A stretch of 64,000 nucleotides of DNA from the NCBI RefSeq assembly GCF_014489635.1, contig NZ_CP060828.1, positions 2,294,001 to 2,358,000 on the forward strand, in the 5' to 3' direction. Within the stretch, counting starts at the first letter, position 1. Every line of letters begins with the position of its first letter. The notes beneath the pieces were generated by a model. It had not been told where the DNA came from. It was given only the letters and a program-made list of their open reading frames with translations, and ran no database searches. The stretch is from Streptomyces roseirectus. GTDB lineage: Bacteria; Actinomycetota; Actinomycetes; Streptomycetales; Streptomycetaceae. Of this stretch, positions 1 to 11,835 are shown in pieces. The translations under genes were made by a program, and so were the position numbers.

Positions 1-3000
1 ACTCGCGGTCCACGCTGCGCATCGAGTTGAGGGTCTCCCACAGGCCGTAGCGCTGCTCGAACACCTTGAGCAGGTTGTGCTGGCCCTTGCCCTGGCTGCG
101 GTAGTAGAGGTCCTTGCCCTCGGCTGCGGCGGTGCCGGCCTGCCGGTACCAGTCGTCCAGGAGGTAGCCGAGTTCGGCCCGTACATCGGCGCGTACGGTG
201 TCGGCTCCCGCGGCTCCGTACTCGGCGGTCGCGGCACGCTCGGCCAGGGTGTCGGCGATCCGCCCCGCCTCCTCCTTGTGGTCGGTGATGCGTCCGGCCC
301 GGTTCTCGGCGGCCAGGCCGAGCCGGTGGCGGACCAGGATGACCAGCGCGGCGTGCAGGGCGCGGCGGCGGGCGGGCAGCGACCAGGGAGTGACGCTGGC
401 GGGTTCGACGTAGCGGTAGAGCGCCCGGTGGTAGTCCATGAAGGTCTCGTAGTGGGACCGGTCGCGCGGGCGTGTGGCGTTGAAGTAGGTGACGACGAGT
501 CCGGGCACCCGGTGACGGCCGACGCGGCTGGTGGCCTGGATGTACTCGGCGGTGGTCTTGGGCTGACCCTGCATGAGCATGTACGCGAGCCGCTTCACGT
601 CGACGCCGACGGAGAGCATGTTGGTGCACGGCAGGAACGACACCGACTGGGGGTCCGTCCAGGGCTGTTCGAGGCGGTCGAGGAGGATGGGCTGCTCGGC
701 GCGCGGCAGGTTGCTGGTCAGCTCCTGTACGTCGCCGTCGCCGAGCGCGCGTACGCCGACGCCCTCGTCAAGTCCCCGGAGCTGGGCGGGGATGTCGTCA
801 CCGGCCGCGGTGACGGTACGGCCGAGCTCGCGCAGGCTGTGGTGGTAGGCGACCAGGGTCCAGTAGGCGTCGCGGTGTTCCTCGGGGAGCTGGTGAACGC
901 CCTGGAGCATGGCCGCGGTGGTGGCGACGGCGCCGCGGCCCGCGGTGTGGCCCTGTGCCATGACACCGAGGTAGAGACGGCCGGGGCTGCCGGTGTCGGG
1001 GACGGCGAAGAAGCTGTCGCGGGCGTCGAGTCCGGACGGCGGAAAGAGCTGGACGTCCTGGTGGTGCAGGGCGCGGACCTGTTCGGCGGAACGCCGGATG
1101 GTGGCCGTGGCGGCGACGATCTTGGGCGGGCGGCCGTCGGGGTCGGTGCAGAGCTCCAGGACGGCCGCCTCGTAGAGGCCGACCGTGGTGCCGAGCGGTC
1201 CGGTGAGCAGGTGCAGCTCGTCCTGGATGATCAGGGACGGGGGCCGGTGGCCGGTGCCCGCGCCGAAGAGGCGGCCGGAGTCGGGCTCCCAGGCGAGGCG
1301 GGCGAACTTGTCGACGGTGCCGAGGACGAACGTGGGCGGATCCTCGTAGAGGTGCTGGTCGACGACGGCGACGGGCAGGACGTCGTGGAAGGCGCACTCG
1401 TCGCGGGTGCAGTGGAAGGCAAACTCGTCGGCCTCGGCGCGGACTCCGTAGTCGGAGCGGACGCTGGACCAGGTGGGTGGCAGGATGCGGGTGCCACACC
1501 ATGGGCAGCGATCGAGGATGAAGACGTCCTCGGGGTGGCTGGCCGCGCGCTGCTCGTCGAAGGCGACTTTGGCCGCCTCGAACTTGTTCGGGGTGGTGGT
1601 GTCACCGACCCACAGGCCGATGGTGATGGGTTCACCACCGAGGCCGAGTCCGGGTTCGGTGCGGCGGAGGTGCTCCAGGGCGCAGATCGTGGTGGCGGCG
1701 CGCTGGAACTGCTGGGTGGTGAGCAGGCTGAGCGTGTAGCGGCTGATCACGGTGGTCCCGCCGCCCTCGCCGCGGATCCGACGCAGGGCGATGGTGAAGG
1801 CCGCCAAGAGCAGATAGGCCTCGGTCTTGCCACCACCGGTGGGGAACCAGATCAGGTCGGTGGTGTCGCGATCCTGGTGGCCGGGATCGGCGACGCCGTC
1901 GAGGGCGAGGAGGAAGAAGGCGAGCTGGAAGGGGCGCCAGGTGGCTCCGAGGTCGACGGGCGGGTCGAGGGCCACGGCATTGGAGCGGAGCCGTCTCTGC
2001 CCGGCATGGTCGGGGGCGGAGTGCCGCATCTGCAGCAGCATGGCGCGCTGGGCGATGCGGAAGGCGTCGAGGAGTTCGGGGCGGTCGGGGTCGCACAAGG
2101 TGCGCACGCCGGACTCGATGCGGGTGACGGCCTGGCGGACGCGAGCGAGGATCCGCTCGGCTGCCTCCCGTCCCCAATCCGGTACCTCGACCGAGCGCTG
2201 GCCCACGTACCAGGCGTGGTAGCTGGCGGCGAACTCGGCTAGCTCGTCCCGGAGTTGGTCCCTTCCGACGGCTGGGTCGGCCAGGTGGGAGATCGTGAGC
2301 GCGGGGGCGTCGAGCGGGCCGCCGGCCCGGACGGTGGGTACTTCGGCCCGGGGCAGAGCTTCACAGGTGAGGAGTTCGACACCACCATGTGCGCCGTGGT
2401 CCTCGCGGACGGCGCAGCCGTGACCGACCGCGTGGGTGACGACATGCCGGTACTGGAGGCGCAGTTCGCGTTCCTCGGGATCGCGGCTGGCGAGCCGCAC
2501 ACTGGGATACGGCAGCACGGCGCCGTCGGCGGGGCGGACGCTGAGCCGGCACTGGAACAGCATGTCGTCCCAGTCCGGCGCCTTGTCGTCGGCACCATCG
2601 TGATGCTTCTCGTTGACCAGGGCCACGGTGAGGAGGGTGCCCGCGCCGTAGGAGCGGCGGGTCAGCCGGACCTTGGCGCGGCCTTCGAAGACGGGCACCT
2701 CCTCCCGGTCGGGGCCGATCGTGTGGGCCTCGGGCGGGAGGGGGATGCGCTGCCAGCGTCGTCCGCGCCCGGGCTCGTTGCGCTGCGTCTCGTAGCGGGC
2801 GGCGGCACAGCTGACCTCGACGTTCACGGCATCGGTGTAGAAGCTGATACCGAGGGACGCGGGCAGCCAGCTGTTGGTCTCGGGCACGGGATCGGTGGCC
2901 AGGTCCACGTCGGGGGCGTCCTGCTCGGCACCGGGCGCCTCGGGGTCGTCGGCGGCGAGATCGAGCAGGCGTCGGCGGTCGGCCTGTTGCGGGTAGAGCG

Positions 3001-3112
3001 TGCCCATCAGGTACTGCCGGTCCGGCGGCGCGTCGAGCACCTCGCCGTCACCGCCGACGGGGCCGACGAGCTGGCGGGTGAGGTAGTCGACCAGCTCTTG
3101 GCGCGGATCCAT
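1..3112 (-). CDS. drmA: DrmA-like DISARM helicase (3' end outside the window)
   Basis: Large SF2 helicase, about 1037 codons visible, running off the left edge just after a conserved NSMRSVD motif near the family's C-terminus. The start is the ATG at 3112, preceded by AAGGAA. The N-terminus (LVGPVGG, PPDRQYLMGTLYPQ) matches the opening of DISARM DrmA proteins. A Walker A with core PTGGGKT lies near residue 422. A zinc cluster follows (CPWC, then CTRDEC), then a DEAH-like box reading QDELH near residue 629, and motif VI reading QATSRVGRHR near residue 855. DrmA with DrmB forms the core DNA-translocating complex of DISARM phage defence; drmB and drmC would be expected just left of the window. 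The gene lies 58 bp downstream of a sigma-70-family gene on the same strand. The helicase assignment is firm; the DISARM assignment rests on protein features because the partner genes are not visible. Confidence 0.72.
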   Translation of the reverse strand, partial: MDPRQELVDYLTRQLVGPVGGDGEVLDAPPDRQYLMGTLYPQQADRRRLLDLAADDPEAPGAEQDAPDVDLATDPVPETNSWLPASLGISFYTDAVNVEVSCAAARYETQRNEPGRGRRWQRIPLPPEAHTIGPDREEVPVFEGRAKVRLTRRSYGAGTLLTVALVNEKHHDGADDKAPDWDDMLFQCRLSVRPADGAVLPYPSVRLASRDPEERELRLQYRHVVTHAVGHGCAVREDHGAHGGVELLTCEALPRAEVPTVRAGGPLDAPALTISHLADPAVGRDQLRDELAEFAASYHAWYVGQRSVEVPDWGREAAERILARVRQAVTRIESGVRTLCDPDRPELLDAFRIAQRAMLLQMRHSAPDHAGQRRLRSNAVALDPPVDLGATWRPFQLAFFLLALDGVADPGHQDRDTTDLIWFPTGGGKTEAYLLLAAFTIALRRIRGEGGGTTVISRYTLSLLTTQQFQRAATTICALEHLRRTEPGLGLGGEPITIGLWVGDTTTPNKFEAAKVAFDEQRAASHPEDVFILDRCPWCGTRILPPTWSSVRSDYGVRAEADEFAFHCTRDECAFHDVLPVAVVDQHLYEDPPTFVLGTVDKFARLAWEPDSGRLFGAGTGHRPPSLIIQDELHLLTGPLGTTVGLYEAAVLELCTDPDGRPPKIVAATATIRRSAEQVRALHHQDVQLFPPSGLDARDSFFAVPDTGSPGRLYLGVMAQGHTAGRGAVATTAAMLQGVHQLPEEHRDAYWTLVAYHHSLRELGRTVTAAGDDIPAQLRGLDEGVGVRALGDGDVQELTSNLPRAEQPILLDRLEQPWTDPQSVSFLPCTNMLSVGVDVKRLAYMLMQGQPKTTAEYIQATSRVGRHRVPGLVVTYFNATRPRDRSHYETFMDYHRALYRYVEPASVTPWSLPARRRALHAALVILVRHRLGLAAENRAGRITDHKEEAGRIADTLAERAATAEYGAAGADTVRADVRAELGYLLDDWYRQAGTAAAEGKDLYYRSQGKGQHNLLKVFEQRYGLWETLNSMRSVDRE

Positions 3113-3170: not shown

Positions 3171-4724
3171 TCAGGCGGGTAGGGGCACCAGGCCGTGGCG
3201 GGCCGCGTGACCGTAGAACTTCGCCCTGGCCTTGGATTCGATCTGGCGGATGCGCTCACGGGTGACTTTGAAGACGGCGCCGATCTCCTCCAACGTGTCC
3301 GGGTCGTCACCGTCGAGTCCGGTGCGCCGGACGAGCACATGCCGCTCGCGCTCGGAGAGTTCCTCCAGGACGATGCGCAGCCGTCCCAGCAACTCCTTGT
3401 GGATCAACACGGCGTCAGGGCTGGGCAGTCGGCTCGGCCCAATGATCAGGTCACCGAGCGCGGCATCATCGCTGATGATCCGGTCCAGGGAGTCGGTGGG
3501 ACGGCTGATTCTGCGCACCTCTTCTACTTCTGCAAAGGTCAAGCCGGTGACGTAGGCCACGTTGTCGATCGTCCTGGGACGGCCTTCGCCCAGAAGCTTG
3601 CGCTCGGCCACGGCGACCTTGCTCACCTTTTCGTGCATGTGTACGGGTATCCGAATGAGGGTGCCCTCGTCGGCGAGGGCCCGTGTGATGGCCTGCCTGA
3701 TCCACCAAGTCGCGTAGGTCGACAGCTTGTAGCCCTTGTCGATGTCGAATTTGCGGATGGCGCGCATCAGGCCAATGGTTCCGTGCTGGACGAGATCATC
3801 GACGTCCAGTCCCCGCCCCTGGTATCCCAGCGCGATCTTCCACACGAGCCGCTGGTTGTGTCGGACAAGGCCCTCGTAGGCCCGCCACTGCTCGCCGTCA
3901 CGGGGCAGCTCTGCGATCTCCTCCGCCGGAACATCGCGACTGAGACCGTCCGTCCCGCCCCGCAGGAGAACCGCGAGGCCGACCTCCTCATCCGCCTTGA
4001 GTACCACCTTGGCCGGGTTCCGGCACCACCGGTCCTCTTCCAGCACGACCCGGGCCGCACGGACGGCCTCGGCCAGCCTCTCGTCCATGACGGAAACGGC
4101 GGATCGAACGCGCTTCTTGCCGGTCGACGCTTTCGTGGGTACACGCGCCGCACCCGAGGACGGAGCCTTTGGGCGAATCCCACCGCCCTGCGCTGCTCGG
4201 GCGGACATACCCGGCGGGCCTGGACGGGTGATCGGAAAGCCGGCGGACAACTCGCGCCCCTCGGCGGGGTTCAGCCCGTGGAGCCGTACGACACCGTCGT
4301 ATGCGAGCTTGCTGACGGTGCCGTCGGCGTCGGTATAGCGGGCCAGCATCCGCCGGGCCTGGGCCAAGCGTCGGGCCGCTTCGCTGGGGACGGACACTGG
4401 ATCAGGGACGGTCTTCCGCTGCTGTCCCGGCGGCGGCACGGGCCGAGCGGTTTGCGCGTCCGGCACAGCGACCAGTGCCCCGACGGAGGTCCGATCCGGT
4501 TTCCGGCGCAACGGTTTCACATGAAGACCGACAGCGGCGAGCCCATCGCGCAGCCTTCGCTGTTGTTCGCCGCTTGTGAACCCGAGCCGGTCCGCCTCGA
4601 CGACGAAGGCCCGATGGCTCACGAAGCCCGAACGAGACGCAGAACGTCTCAACCTCTCAATGACCGAAGGCAACTCCGCCTCGATCGTGCGCCGTCTGGC
4701 CTCGGCCGTCGGCTCCCCACCCAT
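3171..4724 (-). CDS. Sigma-70 family factor heading the DISARM operon
   Basis: About 517 aa. The C-terminal half has the layout of a primary-type sigma factor. A region 1.2-like stretch (EEVGLAVLLRGG) is followed by region 2 (DLVQHGTIGLMRAIRKFDIDKGYKLSTYATWWIRQAI, here split as DLVQHGTIGLMRAIRKF and STYATWWIRQAI), region 3, and region 4 ending TRERIRQIESKARAKF. The first 75 residues (GFVSHRAFVVEADRLGF and following) resemble region 1.1. Between them is a proline/alanine-rich basic linker. The ATG at 4724 is preferred because GGGGGG precedes it; an in-frame GTG at 4736 is the alternative. The gene is the first in a unit with the DrmA-like helicase. Expected role: directing RNA polymerase to defence-island promoters, or sensing infection. 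The sigma fold is clear; the role is inference. Confidence 0.85.
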   Translation of the reverse strand: MGGEPTAEARRRTIEAELPSVIERLRRSASRSGFVSHRAFVVEADRLGFTSGEQQRRLRDGLAAVGLHVKPLRRKPDRTSVGALVAVPDAQTARPVPPPGQQRKTVPDPVSVPSEAARRLAQARRMLARYTDADGTVSKLAYDGVVRLHGLNPAEGRELSAGFPITRPGPPGMSARAAQGGGIRPKAPSSGAARVPTKASTGKKRVRSAVSVMDERLAEAVRAARVVLEEDRWCRNPAKVVLKADEEVGLAVLLRGGTDGLSRDVPAEEIAELPRDGEQWRAYEGLVRHNQRLVWKIALGYQGRGLDVDDLVQHGTIGLMRAIRKFDIDKGYKLSTYATWWIRQAITRALADEGTLIRIPVHMHEKVSKVAVAERKLLGEGRPRTIDNVAYVTGLTFAEVEEVRRISRPTDSLDRIISDDAALGDLIIGPSRLPSPDAVLIHKELLGRLRIVLEELSERERHVLVRRTGLDGDDPDTLEEIGAVFKVTRERIRQIESKARAKFYGHAARHGLVPLPA

Positions 4725-4790
4725 AGTGCCCCCCACTTGAGCGTTCGAGCACCCGGACTTCCAGCGAAGGGTCGGCCGAGCACAGCCAGC

Positions 4791-4820
4791 ACTCTAGGTC
4801 CTGCGCGTTTACAACGTCAA
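4791..4820 (-). promoter_or_regulatory. Predicted promoter of the sigma-factor gene
   Basis: On the minus strand a -35 box TTGACG (4820-4815) and a -10 box TAGAGT (4796-4791) are separated by 18 bp. This places transcription start near 4784, giving a leader of about 60 nt. The -35 box lies inside one of the paired palindromes described next. Confidence 0.55.
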
Positions 4821-4872
4821 CACACTCCGCTGATCTGTTTACACTTTTCACGGGTCACTTGACGACGTCAAC
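4807..4872. promoter_or_regulatory. Paired operator-like palindromes between sigma and mcrB
   Basis: Two copies of a 15-bp imperfect palindrome: GTTTACAACGTCAAC at 4807-4821 and CTTGACGACGTCAAC at 4858-4872. They start 51 bp apart, about five helical turns, in the same orientation. A half-site GTTTACAC lies between them at 4837-4844. The left copy covers the -35 box of the sigma gene; the right copy lies 52 bp before the mcrB start. This suits one dimeric regulator controlling both divergent units. Confidence 0.6.
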
Positions 4873-4923
4873 AGGTAGGGTGGGGGAATTGGCGCCGGCT
4901 TCACGACTCCCGGAAGGTCACCC

Positions 4924-6705
4924 GTGCCCCGACCCGAACTCCTCCCCGGCACTCCCGAGTTCCGCATCAAGCTCCCCAAGGGCGGTGAGGCGCGCGGGCA
5001 TCTGCTGGCCGAGTTCGGCGGCAACGGCACGCACAAGTTCCTGCTGCGGGAGGGTTCCCTGGTGGCCGCCGAGGCCTGGCCCGGGCTCGGCGACCACGCC
5101 CGCCGCAACCGCGCGGATCTGCGCGCGAGCGGCGGCCTCGTCGACGCGACGGCCGACCCCGGCCTGCCGAAGGACCAGCAACGGTGGAGGGCGGCCCGGG
5201 ACATCGAGTGCAACTCCTCCTCGGCCGCCGCCGCGCTCGTGTACGGCTACGACGCCTCCGGCCCGGAGTCCTGGCGCACCGAGGAGGGCCATCCGCTCGC
5301 CGACTATCTCTCCACCGGCTGGCGTGCCCCGCGCAAGGCATGGCTGGTGCGCGGCTCCAACGTCTCCGGGCACAACCTGGTGCGGCAGTTGTGGCTCCAG
5401 GAGGGACTCGTCTCGCTCGCGGGCGCGCATCTGCCGCCCATCGAGGAGACCGACCCGACCAAGAGCGCGCTGCGCCGCTTCGTCGAGGACGGATACGAGG
5501 GGGCGGCCTCGTACCACCAGAAGCGGGGCCTGGTCGACGAGTTGCACGCCTTTCTGACTCAGATGCGCGTCGGCGACGTCGTGGCCACCATCAGCGACGG
5601 TCTCCTGCACATCGGGCACGTCACCGGGGAGGCCGTACAGACCGCGTCGCCGGACGGGCTGTCCAATCTGCGGCGGACGGCCGCCTGGCGGTCAACCAGC
5701 CACCCGTACGAGGAACTGCCGGAGGAGCTGCAACAGAAGCTGTCCGTCCAGCATGACGTTGTCGATCTGACCGCTGTCCTGGACGCGCTGGACGAACTCA
5801 TGGGGCTGACGGACCACACGGCCCCCGTGGCGAGCGGGGAACTGACCTTGCCGGACATCACCGACGCCCTCGCCGCCGAACTCCTCGTCCACGACCGTGC
5901 GTGGCTGGAGGAGATGCGGGAACTGCTCATCGACGACCGACAGTTGGTTCTGTACGGCCCGCCCGGCACCGGCAAGACGTACCTGGCGATGAAACTGGCC
6001 GAGTTCCTCGGCGGCGGTCCGGAGCAGGTCAAGATCGTGCAGTTCCATCCCTCGTACGCCTATGAGGACTTCTTCGAGGGGTTCCGGCCCGTGGAGGATC
6101 CCGAGACGCGGGAGGTGGCCTTCCGGCTGACGGCCGGCCCGCTTCGGGAGCTCGCCGATCTCGCCTCCCGCGACGGCAACCGGCACATCCCGCACTTTCT
6201 GATCATCGATGAGATCAACCGCGCCAATCTGGCGAAGGTCTTCGGCGAGCTGTACTTCCTCCTGGAGTACCGGACGAAGTCGGTCCGACTCACCTACTCC
6301 GGGGACGACTTCGCGCTGCCGCCCAACCTCTTCGTGATCGGCACGATGAACACCGCAGACCGGTCGATCGCCCTTGTGGACGCGGCGATGCGGCGTCGCT
6401 TCGCGTTCGTGGAGCTGTCCCCACGTACCGAACCGACCGCCGGGCTGCTCGCCCGCTGGCTGAAGCGCGAGGGCAAGGACCTGGAGCCCGCCCGCCTGCT
6501 GGACGCCCTCAACGCCCGTGTCGACGAAGCCGACTTCGCCATCGGACCGTCGTACCTGATGAAGCCGGGCGTGTACCGCAACGGCGGCCTCGAACGGACG
6601 TGGCGCACAAAGATCCTGCCGCTGTTGGAGGAGTACCACTACGGCGAGGGCCTCGACGTCGCCGCCCGCTACGGTCTCGACGCCCTGCGCGAGCAGCGCC
6701 CGTGA
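4924..6705 (+). CDS. mcrB: McrB-like GTPase of a type IV (modified-DNA) restriction system
   Basis: 593 aa, GTG start with GGAAGG upstream. The C-terminal half is an McrB-type AAA+ motor. It has a Walker A GPPGTGKT at residues 345-352, Walker B FLIIDEIN with the acidic pair at 429-430, and the McrB signature GTMNTADRS near 473-481, followed by MRRRFAF with likely arginine fingers. The N-terminal 300 residues form the target-recognition part. Residues about 215-280 (RVGDVVATISDGLLHIGHVTG, here RVGDVVAT and LLHIGHVTG, then an RRTAAW segment and LPEELQQKLS) look like an EVE/PUA-type or SH3-like modified-base reader, which is inference. The stop overlaps the mcrC start as GTGA, so the two are translationally coupled. 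McrB translocates DNA with GTP and recruits the McrC nuclease. Confidence 0.9.
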   Translation: MPRPELLPGTPEFRIKLPKGGEARGHLLAEFGGNGTHKFLLREGSLVAAEAWPGLGDHARRNRADLRASGGLVDATADPGLPKDQQRWRAARDIECNSSSAAAALVYGYDASGPESWRTEEGHPLADYLSTGWRAPRKAWLVRGSNVSGHNLVRQLWLQEGLVSLAGAHLPPIEETDPTKSALRRFVEDGYEGAASYHQKRGLVDELHAFLTQMRVGDVVATISDGLLHIGHVTGEAVQTASPDGLSNLRRTAAWRSTSHPYEELPEELQQKLSVQHDVVDLTAVLDALDELMGLTDHTAPVASGELTLPDITDALAAELLVHDRAWLEEMRELLIDDRQLVLYGPPGTGKTYLAMKLAEFLGGGPEQVKIVQFHPSYAYEDFFEGFRPVEDPETREVAFRLTAGPLRELADLASRDGNRHIPHFLIIDEINRANLAKVFGELYFLLEYRTKSVRLTYSGDDFALPPNLFVIGTMNTADRSIALVDAAMRRRFAFVELSPRTEPTAGLLARWLKREGKDLEPARLLDALNARVDEADFAIGPSYLMKPGVYRNGGLERTWRTKILPLLEEYHYGEGLDVAARYGLDALREQRP

Positions 6706-7937
6706 CACTGCCCATGCCTGAGGTGTCGCTGCGCGAGTACGGGCCCGCCGTCTCCGTCGCGCTGGACACCGAGGCCGGGCGGGCCCTGGCCGCCTCCGGG
6801 ATCCTGCAGAGCGCGACCCCCGATCCAGGCCGTGACGGGCACTGGCTGCTGCGCGCGGGCAGCCGCGTCGGCGCCGTGCGCACGGCCGGCGGTCAGGTCG
6901 TACGGATCGTGCCCAAGACCCCGGTGAGCCGGCTGTTCTTCCTCCTCGGGTTCAGCCTCGACCCGGCCCGCGCCTGGCGCGACAGCGGCGAGGGCACCGT
7001 GGACACCGGTGCCTACGACGATGTCGTGCCCGCCCTCGCCCATGCCGTTGAGCGGCAGATCGACGGGGCCCTGCGCCAGGGTGTCCTCCAGGGCTACCGG
7101 GAGGTCGAGGAGACCGCGCTGGTCGTGCGCGGAAGGCTGCGTGAGGCCGAGCAGATCCGGCGGCACTTCGGCCGTACGCCGCCCGTGGAGATCGCCTACG
7201 ACGCGTACACCGCCGACACCGCCGAGAACCGCATCCTGCGCGCCGCGACCGAGCGGCTGCTGCGGCTGCCAGGTGTTCCTGGTGACGTCCGGCGGCGCCT
7301 AGCCCATCAACGGGTACGACTGGCCGGCGCACTGCCGTTGATACGGGGTCAGGATCTGCCGCGTTGGCAGCCGTCGCGTCTCAACTCCCGCTACCAGCCC
7401 GCGCTTCGGCTCGCGGAAGCCGTCCTGCGAGGCACCTCGCCGGAGCACCGGCCTGCCGGGGCCGCCCCGCTCGCCGTGGATGGCTTCCTGCTCGACATGA
7501 ACAAGCTGTTCGAGGACTTCGTGACCGTCGGCCTGCGCGAGGCGCTCAGGGAGCATGGTCTGACCGCGCGCCTCCAGGACCCCCATCACCTCGATGTCGC
7601 GGGTCGGGTGGGCATGCGCCCCGACTTGGTCGTCCGCACCGGTGACGGCCGTACCCCGCTCGCCGTCGTCGACGCCAAGTACAAGGTTGAGAAGGCCGAC
7701 GGGCTTCTCAACGCCGACCTGTACCAGGCACTCGCCTACGCCACAGTGCTCGGTCTGCGCGAGGCCCACCTGGTGTACGCGGCCGGACGGCAGCCCTTGC
7801 GCCGCCACGAAGTGTGCGGAACGGCCGTGCGAATTTATCAGCACAGCCTCGATCTCTCCCGCGAACCAGAACAACTCCTCACGGCTTTCCGGGAGATCGC
7901 CGGACGTCTGGCGTCCGGAAGAAGGGAAGGTATCTGA
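6702..7937 (+). CDS. mcrC: McrC-like endonuclease subunit
   Basis: 411 aa. The start is a GTG overlapping the mcrB stop (GTGA). The protein follows the McrC plan. A beta-rich N-terminal part (VVRIVPKT) is followed by an alpha-helical middle (ENRILRAATERLL) and a C-terminal PD-(D/E)XK nuclease. In the nuclease RPDLVV and AVVDAKYK supply the Asp and D-x-K residues, and NADLYQALAYA is the conserved following helix. McrC assembles with McrB hexamers and cuts DNA carrying modified bases. The stop overlaps the next start as TGATG, so three genes form one operon. Confidence 0.9.
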   Translation: MTLPMPEVSLREYGPAVSVALDTEAGRALAASGILQSATPDPGRDGHWLLRAGSRVGAVRTAGGQVVRIVPKTPVSRLFFLLGFSLDPARAWRDSGEGTVDTGAYDDVVPALAHAVERQIDGALRQGVLQGYREVEETALVVRGRLREAEQIRRHFGRTPPVEIAYDAYTADTAENRILRAATERLLRLPGVPGDVRRRLAHQRVRLAGALPLIRGQDLPRWQPSRLNSRYQPALRLAEAVLRGTSPEHRPAGAAPLAVDGFLLDMNKLFEDFVTVGLREALREHGLTARLQDPHHLDVAGRVGMRPDLVVRTGDGRTPLAVVDAKYKVEKADGLLNADLYQALAYATVLGLREAHLVYAAGRQPLRRHEVCGTAVRIYQHSLDLSREPEQLLTAFREIAGRLASGRREGI

Positions 7938-10078
7938 TGCCTCGGCTCGCTTTCGCCCAGAGTTTCTGGGACGGCTACGACGCTTTGGAGAAGCCGGTCC
8001 GGGCCGGAGTACGCAAGGCCATGGCGAAGTTCCAGGCCATGAGCGCGGCCGAACTCAACGCGGACAAGGGGCTGCACCTGGAGTCCGTCCACAACGCCCG
8101 TGACCCGCGGATGCGGACGATCCGCATCACCGACTTCTGGCGAGGTGTCGTCCTCGCGCCCGACGACGGCAGTGACATGTTCCTCCTGGTCAATGTCCTG
8201 CCGCACGACGACGCCTACACCTGGGCGGCGAAGCGCCTGTACAGCGCGAACTCCGCGACGCGCGCCCTGGAAGTGCGCAACGCCGTCGCTCTGGACGAGC
8301 TGACACCGCTGTACGAGACGGCCGCGCGCACGGCTCCCCGGCTGCTGTTCGCGGACGTCTCCGACGACACGCTGCGCGATCTCGGCATCGACGACCAAGT
8401 CCTGCGCGCCGCACGATCGTTGGTGGACAAGGCCCAACTGGAAGCTTTCGCAACGCTGTTGCCGGAGGACCAGCTGGAGGTGCTCCAGTACCTCGCCGAA
8501 GGCTTCAGCCCGGAAGAGGTCTACCGGGACGTCGTGGCCGTACGCCGCCCCGCCGACGCGCCCGCCGAACCGGTCGAGGACCTGGCCACGGTGATCACCA
8601 ACACGTCGGCCCGCATCCGACTGGTCACCGGACCGCGGGAGTTGGAGGAGATGCTGGCGAAGCCGTTCGCGGCCTGGCGGGTCTTCCTGCATCCCTCCCA
8701 GCGGCGCGTCGCCTACCGCACGTCGTACGGCGGTCCCGTCCAGGTCACCGGAGGCCCTGGCACGGGCAAGACGGTGGCCGCGCTGCACCGGGTCAAGCAT
8801 CTGCTCGGCCGCTCCGACGACGGCCGCATCCTGCTCACCACGTACACGAACGCGCTCGCCGCCGGACTGCGTGAGATGCTCGGTCTGCTCCTCGACGAGG
8901 ACGAGAAGCTGCTGGCACGCGTTGATGTGACGACGGTCGACGCCTGCGCCAACGGCGTCGTGCGCGCCCGCTCGGCGACCGCGCCGAAGCCGATCGGGGA
9001 CCGAGAGCAACGGCAGTTGTGGGAGAAGGTGGTCAAGCAGCTGGATCTGCCGTTCACCGCCCGGTTCCTGGCCCAGGAGTACCGGCACGTCGTCCTCGGC
9101 CAGAACCTCCGCGATGTCGACGCTTACCTCGGCGCGAGCCGCCGCGGCCGCGGCACCGGTCTCGGTGCCGCGCGTCGCCGGGAGGTGTGGAGGGGTGTGG
9201 AGCGGTTCGAGCAGTTCCTGCGCGACCGCGGCGAGACCACGCACCTGGGGATCTGCGCCCGTGCGGCGGAACTCCTCTCCGACGGCGCCGGGCCGGTTCC
9301 GTACGCCCATGTCGTCGTGGACGAGGCACAGGACCTGCACCCCGCGCAGTGGCGGGTGCTGCGTGCCGCCGTCTCCCCCGGCGCCGACGATCTGTTCATC
9401 ACCGGTGACCCGCATCAGCGGATCTACGACTCCCGGGTGTCGCTGGGCTCGTTGGGCATCGCCTCGGTCGGCCGCAGCTTCCGGTTGCGCGTCAACTACC
9501 GCTCCACGGAAGAGATCCTGGCCTGGTCGGCCCGCCTCCTCGCGCCCGTCACCGTCGACGCGCTCGAAGGTGAGGGGACGGACTCGCTGGCCGGGTACCG
9601 CTCGCTCCTGCACGGCGGCCGCCCTCGGGTTCGGGGGTACGCCACCCGGCAGGAGGAGACGGAGGCACTGGTGGAGCGGGTCCGAACCCTGGTCGCAGAG
9701 GGTTTCGCGCCGCACGAGATCGGTGTGTGCGCGCGCTTCAACCTGGCCCTGGACACGGCCGAGGAGAAGCTGAAGGCCGCAAAGATTCCGGTGCTACGGG
9801 TCAAAGGGCAGGTCACGCAAGGGTCCGAGGGTGTGCGGCTGGCGACGATGCACGCGATGAAGGGACTGGAGTTCCGGGCGGTGTCGGTGCTCGGTGTCGC
9901 CGAGGGCACCGTCCCGTTCGCCCGTGAGATCACCCCGCGTGAGGCGGACCCACTCCAACATGAGGCCGACCTGCTCCGTGAGCGCTGTCTGCTCTTCGTC
10001 GCCTGCACACGCGCTCGCGAAACCCTGACGGTGACGTGGAGCGGGACCGCGAGCCCCTTTCTCCCGCCCGTCGACTGA
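7937..10078 (+). CDS. SF1 UvrD/PcrA-like helicase with RelE-like N-terminus
   Basis: 713 aa. The ATG overlaps the mcrC stop and follows GAAGGGAAGG. Residues 1 to about 115 resemble a RelE/ParE-type fold seen at the front of some UvrD-like proteins (HLESVHNARDPRMRTIRI, then LLVNVLPHDDAYTWA). The helicase core follows: Walker A GGPGTGKT at 272-279, motif II DEAQD at 462-466, GDPHQRIYD (motif III), VNYRSTEEI (motif IV), and motif VI CLLFVACTRARE near the end. SF1 helicases translocate on single-stranded DNA. Translational coupling to McrBC suggests it works with that nuclease, for example by unwinding or resecting cut DNA. The RelE-like part may be only a structural or binding module; whether toxin residues are retained was not judged. 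Confidence 0.85.
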   Translation: MPRLAFAQSFWDGYDALEKPVRAGVRKAMAKFQAMSAAELNADKGLHLESVHNARDPRMRTIRITDFWRGVVLAPDDGSDMFLLVNVLPHDDAYTWAAKRLYSANSATRALEVRNAVALDELTPLYETAARTAPRLLFADVSDDTLRDLGIDDQVLRAARSLVDKAQLEAFATLLPEDQLEVLQYLAEGFSPEEVYRDVVAVRRPADAPAEPVEDLATVITNTSARIRLVTGPRELEEMLAKPFAAWRVFLHPSQRRVAYRTSYGGPVQVTGGPGTGKTVAALHRVKHLLGRSDDGRILLTTYTNALAAGLREMLGLLLDEDEKLLARVDVTTVDACANGVVRARSATAPKPIGDREQRQLWEKVVKQLDLPFTARFLAQEYRHVVLGQNLRDVDAYLGASRRGRGTGLGAARRREVWRGVERFEQFLRDRGETTHLGICARAAELLSDGAGPVPYAHVVVDEAQDLHPAQWRVLRAAVSPGADDLFITGDPHQRIYDSRVSLGSLGIASVGRSFRLRVNYRSTEEILAWSARLLAPVTVDALEGEGTDSLAGYRSLLHGGRPRVRGYATRQEETEALVERVRTLVAEGFAPHEIGVCARFNLALDTAEEKLKAAKIPVLRVKGQVTQGSEGVRLATMHAMKGLEFRAVSVLGVAEGTVPFAREITPREADPLQHEADLLRERCLLFVACTRARETLTVTWSGTASPFLPPVD

Positions 10079-11747: not shown

Positions 11748-11802
11748 ACCTCCAGCGTACACGGACCGACACCCGCATTCCAGAGTATGGTACGTTGACG
11801 AT

Positions 11803-11835
11803 GTACACACGCATATGCTTCTCTACTGTGTGTAC
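11803..11835. promoter_or_regulatory. Operator-like inverted repeat GTACACAC-N17-GTGTGTAC
   Basis: Perfect 8-bp arms GTACACAC (11803-11810) and GTGTGTAC (11828-11835) in the 119-bp gap between the divergent methylase and DUF6119 genes. A further GTACAC lies at 11757-11762, next to the methylase ribosome-binding site. The methylase's own N-terminal HTH is a plausible ligand. Confidence 0.5.

Follow-up and report, generated by a model that had tools for sequence, protein, structure and literature searches.

Little is understood of how bacteria turn on multi-gene defences once phages have taken over RNA polymerase, and a locus of Streptomyces roseirectus raises the question of what a sigma factor does at the head of an antiviral operon. 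The locus lies in a stretch of 64,000 nucleotides (NZ_CP060828.1, positions 2,294,001 to 2,358,000; hereafter the window), in which the gene of a defence-linked sigma-70 factor (3171..4736, minus strand; 521 amino acids, aa) stands 58 bp upstream of the start of drmA, which encodes a YprA-like helicase (1..3112, minus strand; its 3' end lies 28 bp beyond the window; L009:14972-18112, 1046 aa). In one Streptomyces lineage the sigma factor is a constant part of a helicase module resembling the defence island system associated with restriction-modification (DISARM). The reading that we favour, with a rough probability of one half, is that it would serve as a dedicated, repressor-controlled defence sigma of primary-type specificity, fixed in a sigma-drmA-drmB-helicase module. 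The placement of a primary-type sigma 58 bp in front of a DrmA-like helicase, proposed in an initial annotation made from the letters alone, was confirmed both in the sequence and by profile matches. The protein contains sigma-70 regions 1.2, 2, 3 and 4 preceded by two small N-terminal units; in a Pfam scan regions 2 and 4 scored above the cut-off and region 3 below it, and residues 186-509 align to SigA.

The evidence for the linkage comes from a survey of drmA neighbourhoods. A search of 392 same-genus genomes gave drmA matches in 143, with 45 loci in the same drmA clade as the S. roseirectus gene. This locus and 40 of the 44 other same-clade loci were compared, plus 20 loci from other drmA clades; the four set aside were G099 (contig edge), G195 (split), G238 (fragment) and G196 (drmA near a contig end, with the sigma-operator-armC region on a different contig, L236). 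The sigma gene adjoins drmA in 41/41 same-clade loci, own included (drmA at least 51% identical, or 53% and more by the identities listed in the search), a count that takes in L069 though only the sigma tail is visible there at the contig end, and it stands beside drmA in 0/20 loci of the other clades (34-41% identical). Three arrangements were found. In 14 close loci the sigma gene is directly upstream of drmA on the same strand and opposite McrB-McrC; in 17 loci (L054-L070) it is also on the same strand, and most copies are much lengthened at the C-terminus, the majority of the frames measuring 936-1453 aa; and 10 loci (L071-L080) have it on the other strand. In two of the latter (L074:2-3193, minus strand; L080:1-4566, minus strand) the sigma is fused to a PDC-M33A-like domain, GHKL ATPase-like by eye, and the L074 fusion includes a helix-turn-helix (HTH)-like stretch that falls below the Pfam cut-off. 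One run of sigma-70, helicase, DrmB and DNA helicase is also annotated on the Streptomyces fungicidicus plasmid NZ_CP023408.1.

Phylogeny agrees with this picture. In a tree with 36 ordinary sigmas, from which L005 was left out as well as L041, L042 and L069 (incomplete genes or genes cut by a contig end), the linked sigmas group in a single clade (100/100), and the sigma-linked drmA genes also form one clade (Shimodaira-Hasegawa-like approximate likelihood ratio 99, quick method; L075 left out). A separate S. roseirectus sigma (L002) clusters with Streptomyces primary-type sigmas. Among 50 genomes (G001-G050), in nearly every one of which 29 sigma candidates were scored, the sigma family (E<=1e-53) was detected in 3, exactly those with the same drmA clade, and was not detected at that threshold in 47/47 genomes without it. 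The S. roseirectus genome holds 53 Sigma70_r2 matches, which might have led one of many sigma genes to lie next to drmA by chance; this explanation was rejected and is given almost no weight, in view of the 41/41 versus 0/20 loci and the single sigma clade. The same survey and the clade trees bear out the expectation of the initial annotation that sigma and drmA are conserved partners and that the sigma is not a stand-alone factor. In a protein search with 120 of 140 homologues listed, the organism in every homologue name that gives one is Streptomyces. In the phylum, 7 of 396 genomes matched drmA at E<=1e-160, and no sigma lies nearby at L227-L229, the 3 non-Streptomyces genomes among them. 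A named-genome scan placed drmA or drmB near none of the 80 loci listed, which neither shows nor excludes a wider spread, and 40 phage records show a match to the core of the sigma, in no case covering more than 80% of the query.

The operon was initially described as DISARM led by a sigma factor, a description that stands in part. The order is sigma-drmA-drmB-helicase, with drmB and a small UvrD-like helicase gene beyond the window. DrmA is matched by PADLOC (672 bits) and by NCBIfam DrmAS (865 bits, somewhat below the cut-off of 950), and the adjoining DrmB (DUF1998/MZB) scores 394.7 bits in NCBIfam against a cut-off of 240. As in DISARM, drmA and drmB are adjacent and in order; unlike it, a UvrD-like helicase of 446 aa occupies the place expected for drmC after drmB, no methyltransferase belongs to the operon and the sigma leads. 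No match to DrmC, the phospholipase D-type nuclease, was found in the downstream L009 frames scanned (very small frames excluded), and one weak DrmC match (E 6e-5), some 20 kb off, falls within a MkoA/MkoC-like frame of 1111 aa. Neither drmMI nor drmMII is present within the operon; a DrmMI/PglX-like gene ends about 6 kb past the helicase on the opposite strand and is part of an ARMADA-like set described below. Canonical DISARM was thus ruled out, since drmC was not found and the operon is without a methyltransferase.

The accompanying claim that known DISARM operons contain no dedicated sigma also needs qualification. A search of open-licence papers, by listings and passages, turned up none that describes a sigma factor together with drmA, but a sigma factor in defence is not unprecedented, as mzaA of the MzaABCDE system is called a sigma factor in PMC9523054. 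MzaA is the only PADLOC match of the present sigma (E 1.6e-46) and its best NCBIfam match; nevertheless, the 243.5 bits compare with a cut-off of 800 and the match spans only positions 475-701 of the 726 of the profile. No other mza components are among the matches listed for the neighbours scanned, and the fusions in L074 and L080 are a possible link to Mza-type systems. In PMC12458937, which treats DISARM, ARMADA and YprA systems, both uses of 'sigma' name a reagent supplier, and PMC10482375, on Actinobacteria, leaves DISARM, sigma, McrBC and Mza unmentioned. A sigma-like HTH has been reported in the BREX protein BrxL (PMC12839542). McrBC has been linked with a DISARM-like system in PMC11090510, which differs from the present case in having no sigma-70 factor, the two uses of 'sigma' there referring to sigma54.

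The sigma-drm operon is preceded by a promoter of the form TTGACG-18-TAGAGT (4791..4820, minus strand), a pattern with 1 occurrence versus 0.0 in shuffles. A 15-bp palindrome, GTTGACNNTGTMAAC (putative operator 1, 4807..4821, unstranded), overlaps its -35 box, and a copy with one mismatch (putative operator 2, 4858..4872, unstranded) ends 3 bp upstream of TAGGGT (4876..4881, plus strand), which was read by eye as the probable -10 of three divergent genes. These encode a McrB-like AAA protein (4924..6705), a McrC-like protein (PF10117; 6600..7937) and a UvrD-like helicase (7814..10078), all on the plus strand. McrB-McrC is divergent from sigma-drmAB in 14/14 close loci, where the position of this -10 is kept and the palindrome copy beside it is similarly placed; L052 retains one half of that copy. 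The consensus-like promoter and repeated palindrome pointed out in the initial annotation are conserved and apparently controlled: the palindrome supplies the TTGAC of the sigma -35 in 13/14 close loci, the -10 is also found by a simple pattern in 11/14, and with up to one mismatch the palindrome is upstream of the sigma in 14/17 of the loci L054-L070.

In the 9.95-Mb genome of S. roseirectus the exact palindrome has 2 copies (the reversed control has none), and the second lies at the promoter of a kinase-YprA gene. This gene opens an ARMADA-like set, some 27 kb away from the promoter of the sigma, which comprises a 2108-aa protein with an N-terminal protein kinase fused to a YprA/DruE-like helicase (L010:11384-17710, plus strand), a SNF2-type helicase for which the best PADLOC model is DpdE (783 bits), followed by DrmD (163), with a match to the BrxH model too (L010:17778 to L009:1726, plus strand), and a PglX/DrmMI-like methyltransferase (L009:1726-5853, plus strand). 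The order of YprA homologue, SNF2-type helicase and PglX-like methyltransferase in this operator-sharing neighbour is that of ARMADA Type I as given in PMC12458937; the differences are the N-terminal protein kinase on the YprA homologue and the second gene being best named DpdE by PADLOC. On the other side of the shared palindrome, and divergent from the kinase-YprA gene, lies the gene of a large MkoA/MkoC-like protein (L010:8110-11445, minus strand). In 8/10 close-group genomes a second exact site occurs 25-38 kb from the sigma site, always at the kinase-YprA promoter (8/8). Since the palindrome is common to the sigma, McrBC and kinase-YprA promoters, several defence systems appear to share one switch. 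A one-mismatch copy at 11794..11808 (plus strand), between a divergent N6-methyltransferase gene (minus strand) and a TIGR04141/DUF6119 gene (plus strand), is a possible fourth unit of this putative regulon. The S. fungicidicus plasmid retains no more than fragments of the kinase-YprA and PglX-like genes (L264:9233-10064), next to the one-mismatch operator upstream of the sigma.

Across 246 genomes the exact site occurs in 36, compared with 5 for the reversed control pattern. Its surroundings were inspected in 25 of the 36, and in 22 of the 36 it falls, by position or sequence, at a sigma, ARMADA-like, McrBC or Schlafen (SLFN)/Type ISP promoter. No clear defence promoter was recognized at the site in G141, G131 and G223, with some G131 neighbours matching PADLOC models. 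Two separate exact sites are present in 10 genomes, namely the 8 close-group genomes, G217 and G228; in G217 the further site, besides the ARMADA-like one, precedes a Schlafen-AlbA_2 and Type ISP restriction set. Five genomes carry the palindrome at an ARMADA-like promoter (G217, G158, G116) or at McrBC (G130, G029), and in these no member of the sigma family was detected, the sigmas found being of primary-type score only (~160-180 bits). The sigma itself is for this reason disfavoured as the reader of the palindrome, which is probably recognized by another protein. The positions of the sites, over a -35 or just before a -10, suggest that a repressor acts through them. This would resemble repression of the RptR type, in which a palindrome overlaps a defence-island promoter, although RptR reads TAGCTA and the palindrome here is of 15 bp (PMC12255303); other regulators of immune operons are treated in PMC13373217 and PMC12255303. 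An ordinary alternative sigma that autoregulates its operon, for instance by growth phase and with no infection link, would also be compatible with a consensus promoter at the sigma's own operon. We regard this island-housekeeping role as improbable, as it sits poorly with the lack of the sigma family in the 47/47 genomes and with an operator common to other defence genes.

The dedicated defence sigma that we favour could work as follows. A repressor would hold the sigma, McrBC and ARMADA-like promoters off via the palindrome, and infection would relieve it, so that sigma of primary-type specificity (TTGACR/TAGAGT) is produced in a burst. The sigma would then keep or boost RNA polymerase on the island promoters, with positive feedback at its own, also when a phage blocks the primary sigma of the host or dislodges it. 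It is plausible that the sigma would redirect RNA polymerase during infection, and antiviral genes in these Streptomyces may be run by dedicated transcription machinery. The fuller scheme, in which a defence-only sigma sustains antiviral transcription after the phage disables the primary sigma, a single repressor switch governs the DISARM-like, McrBC and ARMADA-like systems along with others, and a promoter-blind branch of the family is an RNA-polymerase-docking immune component, is a tentative proposal and doubtful as a whole. A sigma that travels with a DISARM-like module, together with an operator common to several different defence systems, makes the idea of a coordinated immune regulon testable in an ordinary Streptomyces.

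Primary-type specificity is indicated by the residues of the protein. W345, Q348, R493, E494, R497 and Q498 are invariant in 112/112 listed homologues with region 4 (120 of 140 homologues were listed); we take them to be E. coli W434, Q437, R584, E585, R588 and Q589, that is, positions presumably engaged in -10 and -35 reading. The mean conservation is 0.925 in the recognition helix versus 0.80 in the preceding rest of region 4, and falls to 0.44 and 0.54 in the N-terminal linkers. Like HrdB/SigA, the linked sigma has regions 1.2-4 and the key promoter-reading residues; it differs in forming a separate clade, in its N-terminus and in being tied to defence genes. The two N-terminal units have a similar predicted topology, their profile match being non-significant (hhalign probability 3.6%, pairwise E 0.004), and their predicted models (mean predicted local distance difference test scores 63.7 and 70.3) gave no match strong enough for a fold name in a PDB comparison.

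Outside these positions the sigma changes fast. Its regions 1.2-4 diverge more than drmA in 66/66 pairs of 12 close loci (L041 and L042 excluded). Compared with G013, the DNA of the own locus is 93-99% identical on both sides of the sigma gene, and inside it identity drops to 0.53-0.87 per 150-base block, lower at the 3' end, so that the sigma gene appears to have been swapped by recombination as a cassette. With the DNA-reading residues fixed, such rapid change and swapping of the sigma surfaces could be the trace of escape from a phage anti-sigma. The same divergence, and a replacement confined to the sigma gene while its flanks stay nearly identical, would also fit a guard. The sigma would here serve as bait for an anti-sigma protein of the phage, and its capture would trigger the defence enzymes. 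Such a sensor is nonetheless unlikely in our view, given that no phage protein is known to bind this sigma and that a bait has no need of an intact -35 reading helix.

Several observations weigh against a dedicated promoter-reading sigma under repressor control. The consensus promoter ought to be readable by the host HrdB as well. The conservation of the recognition helix is not unique to it because regions 2 and 3 reach comparable values (0.89-0.94), and two other positions presumably acting at the -10 vary, W344 (E. coli W433) being kept in 94/112 homologues and T351 (T440) in 87/112. The palindrome, allowing one mismatch, is near the sigma in 0/10 of the loci L071-L080, and two of the ten close-group genomes (G245, G166) have the exact copy at the sigma only. 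The sigma and drmA subgroups agree for the most part but differ over L071 and L072, which join L054-L070 in the sigma tree and branch outside the close group plus L054-L070 in the drmA tree. Outside Streptomyces the drmA-drmB-helicase core occurs with no sigma nearby (L227), and by annotation a sigma-free core is carried on Deinococcus and Photobacterium plasmids. Finally, region 4 is missing in 8/120 listed homologues, 7/8 of which also have a changed WW pair in region 2, so in some lineages the sigma seems to do something other than promoter reading.

Among the 14 close loci, two sigma variants (L041:3669-4931, plus strand; L042:12244-13494, minus strand) lack region 4 and share a similar basic C-terminal tail, in loci with a drmA 94-98% identical to that of S. 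roseirectus. The ratio of nonsynonymous to synonymous substitutions (dN/dS) of one region-4-less pair is 0.33, compared by the same method with 0.30-0.36 for other sigma pairs and 0.15-0.22 for drmA, and because it resembles that of the other sigma pairs this pair does not look like free decay. In some strains docking on RNA polymerase alone may matter, judging from this branch. These open and constrained forms (dN/dS ~0.33, one pair), together with the long C-terminal extensions in most of L054-L070 and the PDC-M33A-like domain in L074 and L080, would favour an RNA-polymerase adaptor or decoy that docks on the core enzyme and brings DrmAB-helicase to transcribing phage DNA, or keeps polymerase away from phage promoters, with promoter reading secondary. 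We consider this possible but rather unlikely, since pure docking needs none of the six promoter-reading positions that are invariant in 112/112. The exchangeable sigma cassette and the region-4-less variants provide natural experiments on the role of the sigma.

Two further features of this genome were observed. A second drmA-drmB pair (G000:C1:6019674-6022847; L096) belongs to another clade and has no sigma nearby. An AbiEii-like nucleotidyltransferase gene (L009:10773-11432, minus strand) lies between the helicase gene of the operon and the ARMADA-like set.
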